In this document: positions 2-14,409 of the stretch, one piece after another
Layout of the letters: the number at the start of each line of letters is the position of its first letter
How positions within the stretch are numbered: the stretch's first letter is position 1
Assembly (NCBI RefSeq): GCF_014395785.1
Contig: NZ_CP060713.1
Span: 2,322,501-2,386,500 of the forward strand
DNA from: Nocardioides mesophilus
GTDB taxonomy: Bacteria; Actinomycetota; Actinomycetes; Propionibacteriales; Nocardioidaceae
Direction: 5' to 3'
Length of the DNA stretch: 64,000 bases
Notes under the pieces: model-generated
Databases searched by the model: none
Told to the model about the DNA's origin: nothing
What the model saw: only the letters and a program-made list of their open reading frames with translations
Translations under genes and position numbers: made by a program

Positions 2-322
2 GCGGTGATGTCGCTGCTCGAGGGGCACGCCGACGTCGTCATGGACGGTGTCGGCCCGGAGGTGATCCCGTCGGTGGCCGCGATCCGGCGCCGGTTCAAC
101 GAGCGGCGCAAGGGCGCCGGACCGCTGGACCGCGTGCTGCGCCGGCTGCTCGGCCTCGAGGCGAAGATGGCGCAGTACCGCAACGGCGCGGCCTTCGTCC
201 GCGGAGCCGTGGACAAGGTCGGCATGGAGGGCTTCAACGCGGTCTGGGTCGGTCCGGAGAACCTGCCGAGCCGCGACGAGATCGGCGACCCCGAGGCCTG
301 GGTGCGCCGCGTGCACGGCTAG
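2..322 (+). CDS. DUF2342-type zinc-dependent metalloprotease, C-terminal part
   Basis: Only the last 106 or so codons lie in the window; the gene begins upstream of base 1. The motif SLLEGHADVVMD near the visible start is typical of the DUF2342 family, zincin-like putative metalloproteases whose genes commonly sit directly before tilS in actinobacteria. The tail ends in an acidic and basic surface-type sequence with no membrane segment. The stop lies 4 bases before tilS, so the two are probably cotranscribed. The biological substrate of this family is not known to me. Family assignment is fairly sure; proteolytic activity is inferred from the family and the catalytic motif is not fully visible. 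Confidence 0.75.
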   Translation, partial: AVMSLLEGHADVVMDGVGPEVIPSVAAIRRRFNERRKGAGPLDRVLRRLLGLEAKMAQYRNGAAFVRGAVDKVGMEGFNAVWVGPENLPSRDEIGDPEAWVRRVHG

Positions 323-9764: not shown

Positions 9765-10406
9765 ATGGCCAGTCCTTCCCCGCACGACCTGCCGGCCCGG
9801 CCGCACCGTCGACGTCAGCGCAGCGTCCGCGTCACCGTCGCCGTCGCCCTCCTCAGCCTGGCCACCGCCGTCGTGGTCGTGGCCGTCCCCACCCAGTCGG
9901 TGCTCTGGCTGACCGTCGCCTCGGTCCTGGCGCTGGCGTGCGGCTGGGCGGCCGCCCGGATCGTCTACACCGAGCTCGTGCAGAGCCGTCGCGACGCCGC
10001 CACCGACCGCGCGGCGCAGGCGCAGGCCTACCGCAGCATGTTCGCCGAGCGGGCCACCGAGCACGCCGAGTTCACCACGGGGATGACCGACCGGCTGTCG
10101 CTGCGGGAGCGTGAGATCGCCGAGCTGACCTCCACGGTGGTCGCCGCCGAGATGCGAGCCGTCGAGGCCGAGTCCCGGGTCCAGCGCGAGGCCCGCCGCG
10201 CCAACGAGGCGTCCGAGCGTGCGAGCGAGGCGCAGTCGCGCGTCCACGAGCTCGAGAAGCTGGTCGAGGAGCTCGAGGTCCACCGGGCCGAGCAGTTCGA
10301 CCAGCTCGCCTCCTGGGAGGGCTTCGAGACCGTCGTGGACCTGATGGCCTGGGAGCAGAAGGTCACCGCGGCCCAGCACGCGGAGCCGCAGCAGAAGCAG
10401 GCCTGA
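9765..10406 (+). CDS. Two-helix membrane protein with C-terminal coiled coil
   Basis: 213 residues, not assigned to a named family. An Arg-rich N-terminus is followed by two adjacent hydrophobic helices (about 24-43 and 48-66). Residues 70-185 are almost entirely charged and Ala-rich with heptad character, for example EIAELTSTVVAAEMRAVEAES and SERASEAQSRVHELEKLVEELEV, predicting a long cytoplasmic coiled coil. Mycobacteria carry an Ala/Arg-rich membrane protein at about the same place after the folate operon, so it may be the equivalent. A scaffolding or cell-envelope role is conceivable, but no function can be read from the sequence. Confidence 0.7.
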   Translation: MASPSPHDLPARPHRRRQRSVRVTVAVALLSLATAVVVVAVPTQSVLWLTVASVLALACGWAAARIVYTELVQSRRDAATDRAAQAQAYRSMFAERATEHAEFTTGMTDRLSLREREIAELTSTVVAAEMRAVEAESRVQREARRANEASERASEAQSRVHELEKLVEELEVHRAEQFDQLASWEGFETVVDLMAWEQKVTAAQHAEPQQKQA

Positions 10407-10467
10407 GCCCGCGGTCCACCCGGGACCCGCTGTCCGGAAGTCAGCCCGGTACGGAAGACTGGCTCGG

Positions 10468-11562
10468 GTGATGCCGACGAGCGACGCCCACGCCAGCGAC
10501 CACCACGAACCGCAGAACCCCCGGCTGTTCCTGCCGGAGAGCACGCGGGCCCAGCTCCCCGAGGGATGGCGCGCCGACGCCCCCGACGAGCGCGACGTGC
10601 CCGAGCTGACCGCGCTGGCTCGGCGCCACGAGACGCGGGCCCGTGGCTGGGCGAGCTCCTCCGAGGAGGACCTGCTCATCGAGGTGTCGGAGCGGGGCTA
10701 CCTGAACCGCGAGAACCTCGTCTTGCGCGACGCGGCCGGTGAGCTCCGTGGGTTCGCCAGCGCCCACGACCGGGCTGCGGGCCGGATGCTGCTGACCGTC
10801 ACCGTGGACGACCGGATCGGCCCGGAGCTCGAGGACCGCGCCGCCGAGGCGCTCTTCGCGTGGGCCGACGAGGCCGCGAGGAGGATCGGCGCGGAGCGGG
10901 GCCTGGAGGTCCAGCAGATCGACTCGGGAGCCTTCGCCGACGACGATCGGCAGCACCGGTGGCTGCAGACGGCCGGCTTCGAGAAGGTCCGGACCTGGTG
11001 GCAGATGAGCCGGCCGGTGACGCCCGACGAGGCCGACCTTGACTCGGAGATCGGTCACGGTGTCCGGATCCGCCAGGTCGAGCGGCAGGGCACCGGGATG
11101 CCCTCCGAGGAGGACCTGCGGATCGTCCACGACGTCCTCGAGAGCGCCTTCGAGGACCACTTCAACTCCCACGAAGAGACCTTCGACGAGTTCGTCTTCC
11201 GGCTGCGCGAGGACCCCGGCCACCGCTGGGACCACTGGTGGATCGCCGAGGTCGTCCCGGACCCCGACGACCCCTCCTCCGAGCCCGAGCCGGCCGGGGC
11301 GCTGGTCGGCGTGGTCGCCGACGGCGAGCCCGCCGGGAGCTACGTGGAGTACATCGGGGTGCTCGCCAACGCCCGCGGCCGCGGGGTGGCGAAATCGCTG
11401 CTGCGCACGGTGATCGCCGACGCCGCGACCCGGGGACGCGACCGGGTCGGCCTCGAGGTCGACGCGAGCAGCCCCACCGGAGCCGAGGGGCTCTACGTGT
11501 CGATGGGCTGGACGACGAAGTACACGACCGAGTCCTGGCACAAGGACGTCCCGGTCACCTGA
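10468..11562 (+). CDS. GNAT-family N-acetyltransferase, two-domain
   Basis: 364-residue protein built like tandem GNAT acyltransferases such as the mycothiol-synthase type. The N-terminal half is degenerate (RDAAGELRGFASAHDRAAGRMLLTV). The C-terminal half carries the acetyl-CoA loop: EYIGVLANARGRGVAKSLLRTVI, with the R/Q-x-x-G-x-G/A-type segment ARGRGVAKSL, then VGLEVDASSPTGAEGLYVSMGW. GTG at 10468 and ATG at 10471 are both possible starts; AAGACT at 10455-10460 would make the GTG leaderless. Substrate unknown. It is followed directly by the inverted repeat array. Confidence 0.78.
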   Translation: MMPTSDAHASDHHEPQNPRLFLPESTRAQLPEGWRADAPDERDVPELTALARRHETRARGWASSSEEDLLIEVSERGYLNRENLVLRDAAGELRGFASAHDRAAGRMLLTVTVDDRIGPELEDRAAEALFAWADEAARRIGAERGLEVQQIDSGAFADDDRQHRWLQTAGFEKVRTWWQMSRPVTPDEADLDSEIGHGVRIRQVERQGTGMPSEEDLRIVHDVLESAFEDHFNSHEETFDEFVFRLREDPGHRWDHWWIAEVVPDPDDPSSEPEPAGALVGVVADGEPAGSYVEYIGVLANARGRGVAKSLLRTVIADAATRGRDRVGLEVDASSPTGAEGLYVSMGWTTKYTTESWHKDVPVT

Positions 11563-11597
11563 CCCCCTCCACCCCGCCCCTGCCCCACCCACCCCCT

Positions 11598-11715
11598 GCC
11601 GAGTCGGCGCATCTGCAGCGTTGAACCCTGTCGAGTCGGCGCATCTGCAGCGTTGGACCCTGCCGAGTCGGCGCATCTGCAGCGCTGGACCCGGCCGAGT
11701 CGGCGCGTCTGCAGC
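11598..11715. repeat. Left arm: four direct copies of a 22-bp motif, period 32 bp
   Basis: Copies start at 11598, 11630, 11662 and 11694, exactly 32 bases apart. Each is GCCGAGTCGGC, itself an 11-base palindrome around a central G, followed by GCATCTGCAGC with a PstI-type CTGCAG. Copy 2 has T at its second base and copy 4 has G in place of A in GCATC. The 10-base linkers (GTTGAACCCT, GTTGGACCCT, GCTGGACCCG) are conserved too, so the real unit is 32 bp. No reading frame of interest crosses it. Confidence 0.95.
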
Positions 11716-11810
11716 AGCGATCTCCTGGTGCCGGGCGCCAGAGCTGAGGTCACGCCCTTTTAAATGTCGTCCGCGAATGCGGAGAGCCGCACACGTCAGG
11801 CTCCGGTTGC
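11716..11810. other. Spacer between the two repeat arms
   Basis: About 95 bases of locally lower GC, with CCCTTTTAAATG near the middle. The symmetry axis of the repeat arms (about 11763) falls within 2 bases of the TTTAAA. No gene, RBS or promoter is recognisable here. Confidence 0.5.
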
Positions 11811-11929
11811 GCTGCAGTTGCGCCGACTCGGCGGGTTCTTGGGGTGCAGATGCGCCGACTCGGCCGGTTTTTTGGGCTGCAGTTGCGCCGACTCGGCGGG
11901 TTTTTGGGGTGCAGTTGCGCCGACTCGGC
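11811..11929. repeat. Right arm: four inverted copies of the same 22-bp motif
   Basis: Copies begin at 11811, 11843, 11876 and 11908 (spacing 32, 33, 32) and read GCTGCAGTTGC/GGTGCAGATGC followed by GCCGACTCGGC, the reverse complement of the left arm with small changes. Linkers are T-rich (GGGTTCTTGG, GGTTTTTTGG, GGGTTTTTGG). Each copy pairs in register with its partner across the axis. The arms lie between the ends of two convergent genes (stops at 11562 and 11945). Confidence 0.95.
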
Positions 11930-11944
11930 GGGTTTGGGGGTCGG

Positions 11945-12937
11945 TCAGGGGGTGGCGGGGTCGACGGCCACGGAGCGGCGCAGCGCGCGGTGCACGGCCG
12001 TGGGGGTGAGCACCCCGATCGGCTGCCCGTCGCGGGTCACGGCGATCCGGTCCTCGTCCTGGCGCAGCAGGGTGGCCAGGGCGTCCTCGAGGGAGTCGGT
12101 GACGGCGACCGAGTGGGTCGGTGACGACCCGTCGAGCGGCTCGAGGTCGGCGGTGTCGATCGGCGTGACCGCCAGGCGCCGCAGGCCGCGGGAGGCCCCC
12201 ACGAAGTCGGCCACGAAGTCGTCGGCGGGGGCCCCGAGCAGGTGCGCCGGCTCGGCGTACTGCGCGAGACGGCCGCCGGCGGCGAACACCGCCACCATGT
12301 CGCCCATCCGAACCGCCTCGTCGATGTCGTGGGTGACCATCACGACGGTCTTGCCGAGGTCCCGCTGGAGCCGGAGGAACTCGTCCTGCAACCGGGTGCG
12401 CACCAGCGGGTCGACGGCGCCGAACGGCTCGTCCATCAGCAGCACGGGCGGGTCGGCGGCCAGGGCCCGGGCCACGCCCACCCGCTGCCGCTGCCCTCCG
12501 GAGAGCTGGTGGGGGTAGCGGCCGCCGTACTGCTGCGGGTCGAGCCCGACCAGCTCGAGCAGCTCGTCGGCCCGCGCCTTGGCCCGCGACCGGTCCCAGC
12601 CCAGCAGCGTCGGCACGGTCGCCACGTTTGCGCGCACGCTCTGGTGCGGGAACAGCCCGGTCTGCTGGATGACGTAGCCGATCCGGCGCCGCAGAGCCAC
12701 CGGGTCGGAGTCGGTGATGTCCTCGCCGTCGATCAGGATCCGGCCGGCGGTCGGCTCGATGAGCCGGTTGATCATCTTCAGCGTCGTCGACTTGCCGCAG
12801 CCGGACGGTCCGACCAGCACGACGAGCGCGCCGGGGGGCACGTCGAGGTCGAGCTCCTGGACCGCCACCGTCCCGTCGGCATAGGTCTTGCCCACGCCGA
12901 CGAGCCGGATCATCGGCTGTTCGCTACGGTCACTCAT
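11945..12937 (-). CDS. Glycine betaine/choline-type ABC transporter ATP-binding protein
   Basis: 330-residue ATPase of an osmoprotectant importer (OpuA/OpuC or ProV type). Walker A GPSGCGKST, Q-loop IQQTGLFPHQSV, signature LSGGQRQRVGVARAL, Walker B VLLMDEPF and the switch-His motif VMVTHDIDEA are all present. The C-terminal part (HSVAVTDSLEDALATLLRQDEDRIAVTRDGQPIGVLT) is a CBS-type regulatory domain as in OpuCA. The ATG at 12937 has a GGGAG Shine-Dalgarno 4-5 bases upstream. It is divergent from, and directly abuts, the first permease gene, which is unusual since the subunits normally share one operon. Confidence 0.92.
   Translation of the reverse strand: MSDRSEQPMIRLVGVGKTYADGTVAVQELDLDVPPGALVVLVGPSGCGKSTTLKMINRLIEPTAGRILIDGEDITDSDPVALRRRIGYVIQQTGLFPHQSVRANVATVPTLLGWDRSRAKARADELLELVGLDPQQYGGRYPHQLSGGQRQRVGVARALAADPPVLLMDEPFGAVDPLVRTRLQDEFLRLQRDLGKTVVMVTHDIDEAVRMGDMVAVFAAGGRLAQYAEPAHLLGAPADDFVADFVGASRGLRRLAVTPIDTADLEPLDGSSPTHSVAVTDSLEDALATLLRQDEDRIAVTRDGQPIGVLTPTAVHRALRRSVAVDPATP
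12925..12930 (+). promoter_or_regulatory. -10 hexamer of the osmoprotectant permease operon
   Basis: TACGGT followed by 7 bases and GTG at 12938. It lies inside the first codons of the divergent ATPase gene and supports a leaderless start at 12938. Confidence 0.5.
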
Positions 12938-13678
12938 GTGGCTCCCTCGTCGAGCGTCCTGACGTTCGTGCACGGCACTCTCGCCGGCACGGACGCGCCC
13001 GCCGTGGCCGACAACTGCCTGGTGCGCAACGACTGGGTGTGCGGGGAGTACCTCCGCTCCCGCGCACCGCAGATCACCGACGCACTGGTGCAGCACATCT
13101 GGATCACCGTCGTCTCCGTGCTCCTGGGCCTGCTGGTCGCGTTCCCGCTGGCGCTTCTGGCCCGACGCTACCGAAGGCTCGAAGGCTTCGTGGTCGGGGC
13201 CACGACCGCGATCTACACGATCCCGTCGCTGGCGCTGTTCGCGCTGCTGCTGCCGTTCACCGGGCTGACCGCGACGACGGTGATCCTCGGCCTCGCGCTG
13301 TACTCCCTCACGATCCTGGTCCGCAACGTCATCGAGGGCCTCAAGGGCGTTCCCGAGGACGTCCGGGAGTCGGCGCTCGGCATGGGCTACGGCCGCCGCC
13401 GGATGCTGCTCGCCGTCGAGGTGCCGCTGGCGCTGCCGACGATCATCGCGGGGGTCCGGGTGGCCGCGGTGTCCACGGTCGCCCTGACCACAGTCGGTGC
13501 GATCGTCGGGTACGGCGGCCTTGGCAACCTGCTGCTGGAGGCCGTCGACAGCCGCTTCAAGGCCCAGGTCCTGACCGCCGCGGTGCTGTGCGTAGCGCTC
13601 GCGGTCGCCTTCGACCTGGTGCTCGTCGGGGTGCAGCGGGTGCTCACTCCGTGGGCGCGGACGAGGAGGGCCGGCTGA
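12938..13678 (+). CDS. Glycine betaine/choline-type ABC transporter permease 1
   Basis: 246-residue inner-membrane permease of the OpuCB/ProW type. After an extracytoplasmic N-terminus (about 40 residues with two Cys, DNCLVRNDWVCGEYL) come about six helices. The EAA-type loop ESALGMGYGRRRMLLAVEVPLALPTIIAG contacts the ATPase. The GTG at 12938 is favoured by the -10 hexamer 7 bases upstream; a downstream GTG at 12968 is an alternative. The stop overlaps the next permease gene by TGATG. Together with the ATPase, second permease and lipoprotein this forms a complete importer. Confidence 0.9.
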   Translation: MAPSSSVLTFVHGTLAGTDAPAVADNCLVRNDWVCGEYLRSRAPQITDALVQHIWITVVSVLLGLLVAFPLALLARRYRRLEGFVVGATTAIYTIPSLALFALLLPFTGLTATTVILGLALYSLTILVRNVIEGLKGVPEDVRESALGMGYGRRRMLLAVEVPLALPTIIAGVRVAAVSTVALTTVGAIVGYGGLGNLLLEAVDSRFKAQVLTAAVLCVALAVAFDLVLVGVQRVLTPWARTRRAG

Positions 13679-14409
13679 TGCTCCAGAGCGTCCTGGACTG
13701 GCTCGCCGACCCAGCCACCTGGCAGGGGGAGAACGGCATCCCGAACCGGCTCCTCGAGCACGGTCTGCTCACGGTCACCGCGACGCTCGCCGCGGCCGCA
13801 CTGGGTCTGCCGCTGGCGGTCTGGCTCGGCCACAAGGGGCGCGGCGGCACCCTGGCGATCAACATCTCCAACGTCGGGCGGGCGGTGCCGACCTTCGCCG
13901 TGCTGCTGCTCCTCGCCCTCGGACCGGTCGGCACGGAGTACTTCGGGGCCTACGGTCGCGCCGGGCTGTCCACGCTGGTGGCCCTGGTGCTCTTCGCGCT
14001 GCCGCCGATCATCACCAACACCTACGTCGGGATGCAGGGCGTCGACCGGGACACCGTGGAGGCCGCGCGGGGGATGGGCATGACCTCGACCCAGCTGCTC
14101 CGGTCGGTGGAGGTGCCGCTGGCGCTGCCGCTGATCCTGACCGGGCTGCGGCTGGCGATCGTCCAGGTGTGGGCCACCGCCACCATCGCCGCCCTGGTGG
14201 CCGGGCCGGGGCTGGGCCGGATCGTCACGCTCGGCTTCGTCCGCCAGGACACCGGGCAGGTCGTCGGCGGCGCGCTGGTGATCGCCGTCATCGCGCTGCT
14301 CCTCGAGGTGGGCATGGTGGCCCTGCAGAGGGTGCTCGACCCGGTCGCCCGGGCCCGTCGTACGACGGCCGCAGCGGCGGCCCTGGGTTCTGTCGGCTCC
14401 CGCCCGTAG
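13678..14409 (+). CDS. Glycine betaine/choline-type ABC transporter permease 2
   Basis: 243-residue permease of the OpuCD type with about six membrane helices and the EAA loop EAARGMGMTSTQLLRSVEVPLALPLILTG. Paralogous to the upstream permease, as usual for Opu systems with two heterologous permeases. Its ATG overlaps the preceding stop (TGATG), indicating translational coupling. TAGGCT at 14407-14412 overlaps its TAG stop and may be the -10 of a promoter for the binding-protein gene. Confidence 0.92.
   Translation: MLQSVLDWLADPATWQGENGIPNRLLEHGLLTVTATLAAAALGLPLAVWLGHKGRGGTLAINISNVGRAVPTFAVLLLLALGPVGTEYFGAYGRAGLSTLVALVLFALPPIITNTYVGMQGVDRDTVEAARGMGMTSTQLLRSVEVPLALPLILTGLRLAIVQVWATATIAALVAGPGLGRIVTLGFVRQDTGQVVGGALVIAVIALLLEVGMVALQRVLDPVARARRTTAAAAALGSVGSRP

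Follow-up and report, generated by a model that had tools for sequence, protein, structure and literature searches.

The window, i.e., the whole stretch of 64,000 nucleotides of Nocardioides mesophilus DNA that was analysed, contains an array of eight repeat units, which is probably a dispersed, non-autonomous member of a nuclease–repeat system whose nuclease recognises the units and helps to spread them. This system appears to be undescribed, and to be built on the gene for a DNA-binding nuclease that is wrapped in its own repeats, recognises them, and probably spreads them. The interpretation given in the initial annotation of this DNA was partly supported as a whole. Of the alternatives it offered, the REP/BIME-like mobile repeat and the protein-binding array pointed in the right direction; the key element outside its view is the nuclease gene located between arrays of its own motif.

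The array occupies positions 11598–11929 and comprises four units per strand, all pointing outward from a 97-bp spacer. It is organised, together with its neighbouring genes, as follows:

10468..11562, plus strand: left convergent gene encoding a GNAT-domain protein, with 35 bp between its stop codon and the array
11598..11714, minus strand: left arm; four CTGCAGATGCGCCGACTCGGC units starting at 11598, 11630, 11662, and 11694, with a 32-bp period
11715..11811, no strand: central spacer of 97 bp; TTTTAAA at 11758
11812..11929, plus strand: right arm; four units starting at 11812, 11844, 11877, and 11909, with gaps of 32, 33, and 32 bp
11945..12913, minus strand: right convergent gene encoding an ABC transporter ATPase, with 15 bp between its stop codon and the array

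Four copies facing four had been described before, and we found the same arrangement (gaps of 32, 32, and 32 bp on the minus strand; 32, 33, and 32 bp on the plus strand), with the GNAT gene (+) and the ABC ATPase gene (−) converging on it and the TTTTAAA lying a few bp from the symmetry axis, which had been placed near TTTAAA. The 14-mer starts of the right arm are 11819, 11851, 11884, and 11916 (+), and those of the left arm are identical to its unit starts (−). Each unit was said to hold an 11-bp palindrome plus CTGCAG; the palindrome is present in seven of the eight units and altered at 11630 (GTCGAGTCGGC), and CTGCAG is present in six, with GTGCAG at 11851 and 11916. Allowing up to two mismatches, TGCGCCGACTCGGC matched the window 18 times compared to 5.2 expected matches, a count reached by 0 of 100 shuffles, and eight of the 18 matches come from the array. 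The central spacer (11715..11811) yielded zero tblastn matches to nuclease proteins and had no 13-mer in common with 14 other spacers, and an Rfam search of window positions 10000–14000 returned nothing up to E = 1.

Uniqueness of the unit to this locus, one of several observations that the initial annotation named as jointly speaking against it, does not apply, as about 25 arrays are distributed along the N. mesophilus chromosome. In the 4.49-Mb genome, GCCGACTCGGC occurs 142 times versus 37 times for the reversed pattern, and TGCGCCGACTCGGCGGG (≤1 mismatch) gave 100 matches versus 0 for its reversed pattern. With ≤4 mismatches to the 21-mer allowed, 22 stretches drawn around motif matches plus the window yielded 148 units in 36 arms of at least two units; 105 of 112 gaps within arms measured 32 bp, and the remainder 30, 31, 33, or 52 bp. 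Two-armed loci start with a minus arm followed by a plus arm, and the units therefore point outward from the centre; deviating orders were found at L096 (− + − +), L095 (− + +), and L100 (− − +). The 32-bp unit and its period are also present in named Nocardioides species, and viral contigs held no exact match to TGCAGNTGCGCCGACTCGGC. DNA-uptake sequences were considered and rejected by reasoning alone, given the arrangement of the units in spaced arrays. About ten of the roughly 25 array loci, the nuclease locus included, fall within 0.37 Mb of the genome (1.57–1.94 Mb). At L110 (3662–3786), three units of this family are 52 bp apart, i.e., about five helical turns, versus the usual 32 bp.

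In one rival explanation, the arrays are bidirectional terminators or 3′-end RNA hairpins composed of RNA elements, and transcripts running toward each other would be stopped or protected there. The outer gene ends toward the arm in 26 of 36 arms, with its stop codon between 2 bp inside and 43 bp outside the array end according to the approximate gene calls of a home-made codon-usage script; the other ten arms do not lie behind a stop codon. An intrinsic terminator combines a stem-loop with a U run at the end of the transcript, and T runs follow some right-arm units. A ~72-bp core palindrome with matching arms, found in N. luteus, YR527, and MAG-46, agrees with this reading, as does the folding of the whole array. 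The very long hairpin that had been proposed is indeed predicted, the paired fold of the whole 383-nt stretch reaching z = −13.2 because the arms are inverted; the four single-arm strands folded with z-values of −0.5, −0.5, −1.3, and −5.0, three of them resembling shuffles. However, the hairpin is not supported as a unifying explanation. Arms also occur singly, without an opposite arm. Contrary to the earlier statement that linkers are conserved between arms, those of the two window arms are 44% alike, and opposite arms of 12 two-armed loci (49%) are no more alike than arms of different loci (55%); L102 is exceptional with 87% between its opposite arms. Linker likeness within an arm amounts to 85%, and this combination of high within-arm and low between-arm likeness fits local arm lengthening by tandem duplication. 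Distances between repeated 10-mers, counts of which are not independent within a locus, rank 32 >> 64 > 21 > 33 > 42 > 63 > 31 bp. Although arrays with 33–34 bp are more than 1 base off whole helical turns, the spacing is mostly near them, which would be expected for proteins aligned along double-stranded DNA rather than for RNA hairpins. Termination also leaves unexplained the gene between arrays, the lineage-specific motifs, and the protein–motif co-variation described below, and we regard it as quite unlikely.

As a separate observation, N. luteus, MAG-46, and Nocardioides sp. YR527 carry the core as a palindrome of ~72 bp around a GCGAAGCGAGCG-type loop, which can have either orientation. 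The arms of such palindromes (L033, L037, L038, L048, L077, L041, L056, and L079) pair AAC/GTT or ATC/GAT.

The nuclease gene was found at positions 1,679,648–1,681,049 of the same genome, where two arms ~1 kb apart flank a gene for a 324-aa protein. In Pfam, this protein matched AbiEi_4 (E 4.9e-7) and, below the cut-off, the Vsr-type nuclease domain MTES_1575 (E 4.6e-5). Among 12 homologues scanned, all matched the AbiEi winged helix PF13338, eight of them over the cut-off, and 11 matched MTES_1575 at 17.9–31.2 bits, all below the Pfam gathering score of 38.2; L164 alone had no MTES_1575 match. PADLOC AbiEi models matched three of three proteins (best E 3.3e-14). Residues of catalytic type (E212, D246, H264, and D273) are present in 51 of 51 sequences, in which one gene is counted twice, and E257 in 50 of 51. 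A profile search against the PDB returned no solved nuclease and three winged-helix chains (best E 0.32), and NCBIfam had no model for three family members. AlphaFold, run on the L080 protein alone, gave a mean pLDDT of 35.5, and the prediction was set aside. At L080 (N. gansuensis), the gene between the arms is a homologue with 43% identity to the 324-aa protein. Ten genes in or beside arrays were scanned, and the AbiEi/nuclease gene was the sole one recurring between arms in two species; most of the scanned genes belonged to ordinary families (DNA polymerase IV, GNAT, acylphosphatase, amylase, or RDD) or were unmatched. Homologues with E ≤ 1e-40 occur in 199 of 294 Nocardioidaceae genomes. 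Across 296 genomes of the wider phylum, this threshold was reached in the own genome only, and E ≤ 1e-10 in 29. A tblastn search (1e-3) of an early set of loci gave no sign of nuclease relics in gene-less arrays, its only matches being two distant paralogues, L080, and the known gene.

The association between gene and arrays was recorded at 51 loci, comprising 30 returned by the search, 20 picked from the match list, and L080, which is the same gene as L169, leaving 50 distinct genes. The gene was enclosed by two outward-pointing phased arrays at 45 of the 51 loci (44 of the 50 genes), whereas random placements, drawn from the window and 40 other loci of mixed origin, gave 0 of 184, under a criterion fixed after the first loci had been seen (at least one unit per side, at least three in total, one near-helical gap, ≤600 bp away). 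With 800-bp flanks and the phasing condition dropped, the numbers were 45 of 50 versus 1 of 31 nadA/ATPase control loci. A cruder earlier test of 30 loci gave direct repeats in 29 (controls: 7 of 141), inverted sharing in 26 (6 of 141), and both together in 25 (0 of 141). Six loci failed the array test: L162 and L170 have an array on one side only, L172 is cut by a contig end, the second array of L135 lies farther out, and L166 (G002) and L167 (G001) form a pair with common neighbours in which the residues of catalytic type are kept and no arrays are present. Arrays are therefore not obligatory. Inward-pointing matches were seen at four of 51 loci (L146, L158, L171, and L181). Neighbouring genes converge on the nuclease gene in 46 of 49 cases on the left and 43 of 48 on the right. 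For distant homologues, the association is suggestive only: of 29 loci, 26 were long enough, and six of these had at least three units with both sides represented, compared to 1 of 31 controls that all belong to one family.

Units share their 3′ half (consensus GCGCCGRSTCGGC) and vary in their 5′ half. Furthermore, repeat abundance follows the cognate gene for the G048 and G002 motifs: GTGCAGACGCGACAGCTCG has 40 copies in G048 and 0 in 32 other genomes, and CCAGACGCGCCGGGTCGGC has 15 in G002, 14 in G004, 9 in G006, and 0 in the 30 other genomes. A second G004 homologue, fetched after the CCAGACGCGCCGGGTCGGC genome search, carries four units per side with ≤3 mismatches to CCAGACGCGCCGGGTCAGCG. 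G006 is a partial exception, since it holds its nine copies of the G002 motif, yet the unit of its second homologue is related but different. TGCANNNGCGCCGACTCGGC was found in 28 of 294 genomes, with at least eight copies in seven. For five of these seven (G000, G060, G092, G262, and G128), a nuclease gene with matching flanking units was identified, in G128 on one side only; the G005 nuclease gene is truncated at a contig end, and the units of the one G221 homologue examined, out of two, do not match. The other exception is G001 (L253–L261), whose dispersed family AGGGCAAGATGCGCCGACTCGGC matches neither of the two nuclease homologues found there; it may be the remains left by a lost nuclease.

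We further compared units and proteins at 42 loci, the 51 aligned sequences being reduced by six without a usable motif and by L169, L171, and L182, which were removed because of duplication or poor motif register. With the remainder of the protein partialled out, and with label permutations that ignore phylogeny, the 3′ half of the unit co-varied with protein window 109–132 (partial r = 0.45; 0 of 1000 permutations) and the variable 5′ half with window 25–48 in the winged helix (partial r = 0.21; 1 of 1000 permutations). Window 229–252 gave a further, weaker signal. Where the motif has AC at −7/−6, residue 116 is glycine in 16 of 16 proteins, compared to 2 of the 26 others. Correlation between whole-protein and motif similarity was weak (rho 0.14 and 0.24). 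In these alignments, the winged helix co-varies with the 5′ half and residues ~97–132 co-vary with the 3′ half. At the sequence level, recognition of the units by the nuclease protein is well supported. For AbiEi, PMC7319586 reports that positively charged residues of both domains matter for DNA binding.

Arrays and nuclease genes seem to differ in how they are inherited. Between the convergent genes nadA and pspAB, the own genome has a gap of 206 bp that holds two plus three units. Nine relatives with convergent nadA/pspAB have gaps of −4, 4, 12, 15, 21, 27, 41, 71, and 73 bp and zero units, and five of them (G001, G002, G053, G060, and G097) have nuclease-linked arrays elsewhere. The other 20 of the 29 relative loci comprise six with larger gaps (684–1340 bp), each of which contains a further predicted gene and shows no trace of an array (0–5 repeated 10-mers per whole locus), 13 without pspAB there, and one with pspAB on the same strand. 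At this one site tested, comparison of relatives shows the array as extra DNA between two stop codons. A tblastn search (1e-20) with the 50 proteins that flank 25 array loci gave a single match, with 30% identity, in 40 stretches from G006, G001, G005, and G004, picked by motif matches from fragmented assemblies and partly located at contig ends; in the sets compared, array positions are thus not shared with congeners. At the site of the window's array, G001 has one additional predicted gene separating the ATPase gene from the GNAT gene, and its own motif forms no array there. The unit-free relatives and the unshared positions suggest rapid gain and loss of arrays. Unlike the arrays, the nuclease gene stays at its site, as judged from 13 loci at which both neighbour genes are common and motifs mostly differ; among these, L080 and L168 nearly share a motif, and L170 is without a consensus.

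The conserved site of the gene, kept across many species, would also suit a host-serving binding array, in which the protein is mainly a DNA-binding regulator or chromosome organiser, the arrays are its operators or anchors, and the nuclease fold is kept for some other reason. One array lies upstream of the nuclease gene, and AbiEi proteins act as autoregulators and bind to inverted repeats, cooperatively in one case (PMC7319586). We nevertheless consider this explanation unlikely, given that array positions are unshared with congeners in the sets compared, that arrays are mostly found at 3′ ends and not at promoters, and that the residues of catalytic type are nearly invariant. Even less probable is a role in defence or self-marking, where a nuclease directed against incoming DNA would be bound, held back, or licensed by the arrays. 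This would account for the fast change in specificity, and both the fusion of an AbiEi-like domain (PADLOC) to a restriction-type nuclease domain and the motif turnover at one site are in line with it; however, defence does not need dispersed arrays, and the protein is hardly found on mobile DNA (one match in plasmid records with 35% coverage, none in phage records). No nuclease relative was confirmed in viral contigs.

RAYT genes are vertically inherited, and their systems process single-stranded repeat DNA. They belong to the RAYT/TnpA-REP systems with their REP, REPIN, and BIME repeats (REPtrons; PMC2817692, PMC8266576, PMC3116915, and PMC3733652). According to PMC2817692, RAYT genes always lie between two inverted REPs, with which they co-evolve, REP repeats are dispersed and species-specific, and their abundance correlates with the cognate gene; a REP unit is a palindrome that can fold into a stem-loop and is tagged with GTAG or CGTC at one of its ends (PMC3733652). 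The system described here resembles them in that the gene is flanked by inverted cognate repeats (44 of 50 genes), and in that the repeats are dispersed, lineage-specific, co-vary with the protein, and are tied in abundance to the cognate gene. Unlike RAYT, the protein has AbiEi_4 and MTES_1575-type matches and no IS200/IS605-like Y1/HUH transposase domain, no Y1/HUH family having been detected by Pfam in 12 homologues. Unlike REPs, the repeats form direct tandem arrays near helical phase and are not tagged stem-loops: the CTGCAGATGCGCCGACTCGGC consensus, which includes an 11-bp pseudo-palindrome, contains neither GTAG nor CGTC on either strand, and among 45 consensus units, either strand and any position considered, GTAG occurs in one and CGTC in 11. 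Since it departs from RAYT/REP in both the defining enzyme and the repeat type, the system is likely a new kind, REPtron-like in logic, with an unrelated protein and a different repeat. More tentatively, it may constitute a new self-propagating nuclease–repeat class, convergent with REPtrons, in which protein and repeat re-code their specificity per lineage.

Other known systems share some features. In AbiE type IV systems, an AbiEii nucleotidyltransferase toxin is encoded next to the AbiEi antitoxin. AbiEi antitoxins of type IV toxin–antitoxin systems combine a winged helix with a second domain, residues of both domains are needed for DNA binding, and repeated sites are bound (PMC7319586); they differ from the present protein, which has a C-terminal nuclease-like domain and phased arrays on both sides and genome-wide. 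The C-terminal E, D, E-Y-D-G, H, D pattern resembles the Vsr-type REase MTES_1575 (PF18741), which PMC3710099 describes as one domain of a protein of >2,100 residues, compared to ~320 aa here. The sub-threshold Pfam scores and the linkage to repeats further set our protein apart. Tn7-type transposon ends carry several transposase sites per end, inverted between ends, which is reminiscent of the arrays; unlike Tn7-type ends, these vary in length, have no fixed terminus that we could recognise, and include gene-less copies with unrelated linkers. In open-licence literature, titles and abstracts among the matches listed contained no link of AbiEi, DUF559, or MTES_1575 to repeat arrays.

For the preferred reading, a nuclease that recognises and spreads its repeats, we propose the following mechanism. 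The autonomous locus would consist of the ~320-aa gene (AbiEi-like winged helix, middle region, and Vsr/PD-(D/E)XK-like domain) between outward-pointing cognate arrays, usually at a convergent intergenic site; the nuclease would be inherited vertically, and the arrays would be non-autonomous. The protein would bind the units as double-stranded DNA, aligned along one helix face, and presumably nick or cut at or beside the arrays. Repair of the break could then copy units into new intergenic sites and lengthen arrays by 32-bp steps, and sites just behind stop codons would be those where additions are tolerated. If true, this would explain what an uncharacterised nuclease family, widespread in Nocardioidaceae, does, and would provide a second, unrelated route to dispersed intergenic repeats in bacterial genomes; the 44 natural protein–target pairs would also allow a bipartite DNA-recognition code to be read.

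In the self-propagating reading, which we rate slightly below an even chance, N. mesophilus would harbour more than one such system, a 32-bp and a 51-bp family, the second being nested in spacers of the first. L134 (own genome 1470268–1471050) encodes a distant nuclease paralogue with 32% identity, around which palindromic units are spaced 51 and 81 bp apart. Sequence related to L134 was found in five of 15 central spacers of 32-bp-family loci (L096, L097, L100, L104, and L107), and a scan of own-genome stretches for the L134 unit (≤3 mismatches, without a chance estimate) returned, outside L134, only L096, L100, and L104. At L133 (own genome 320563–321354), which encodes another distant paralogue, three units at 52-bp spacing are present on the left flank only.
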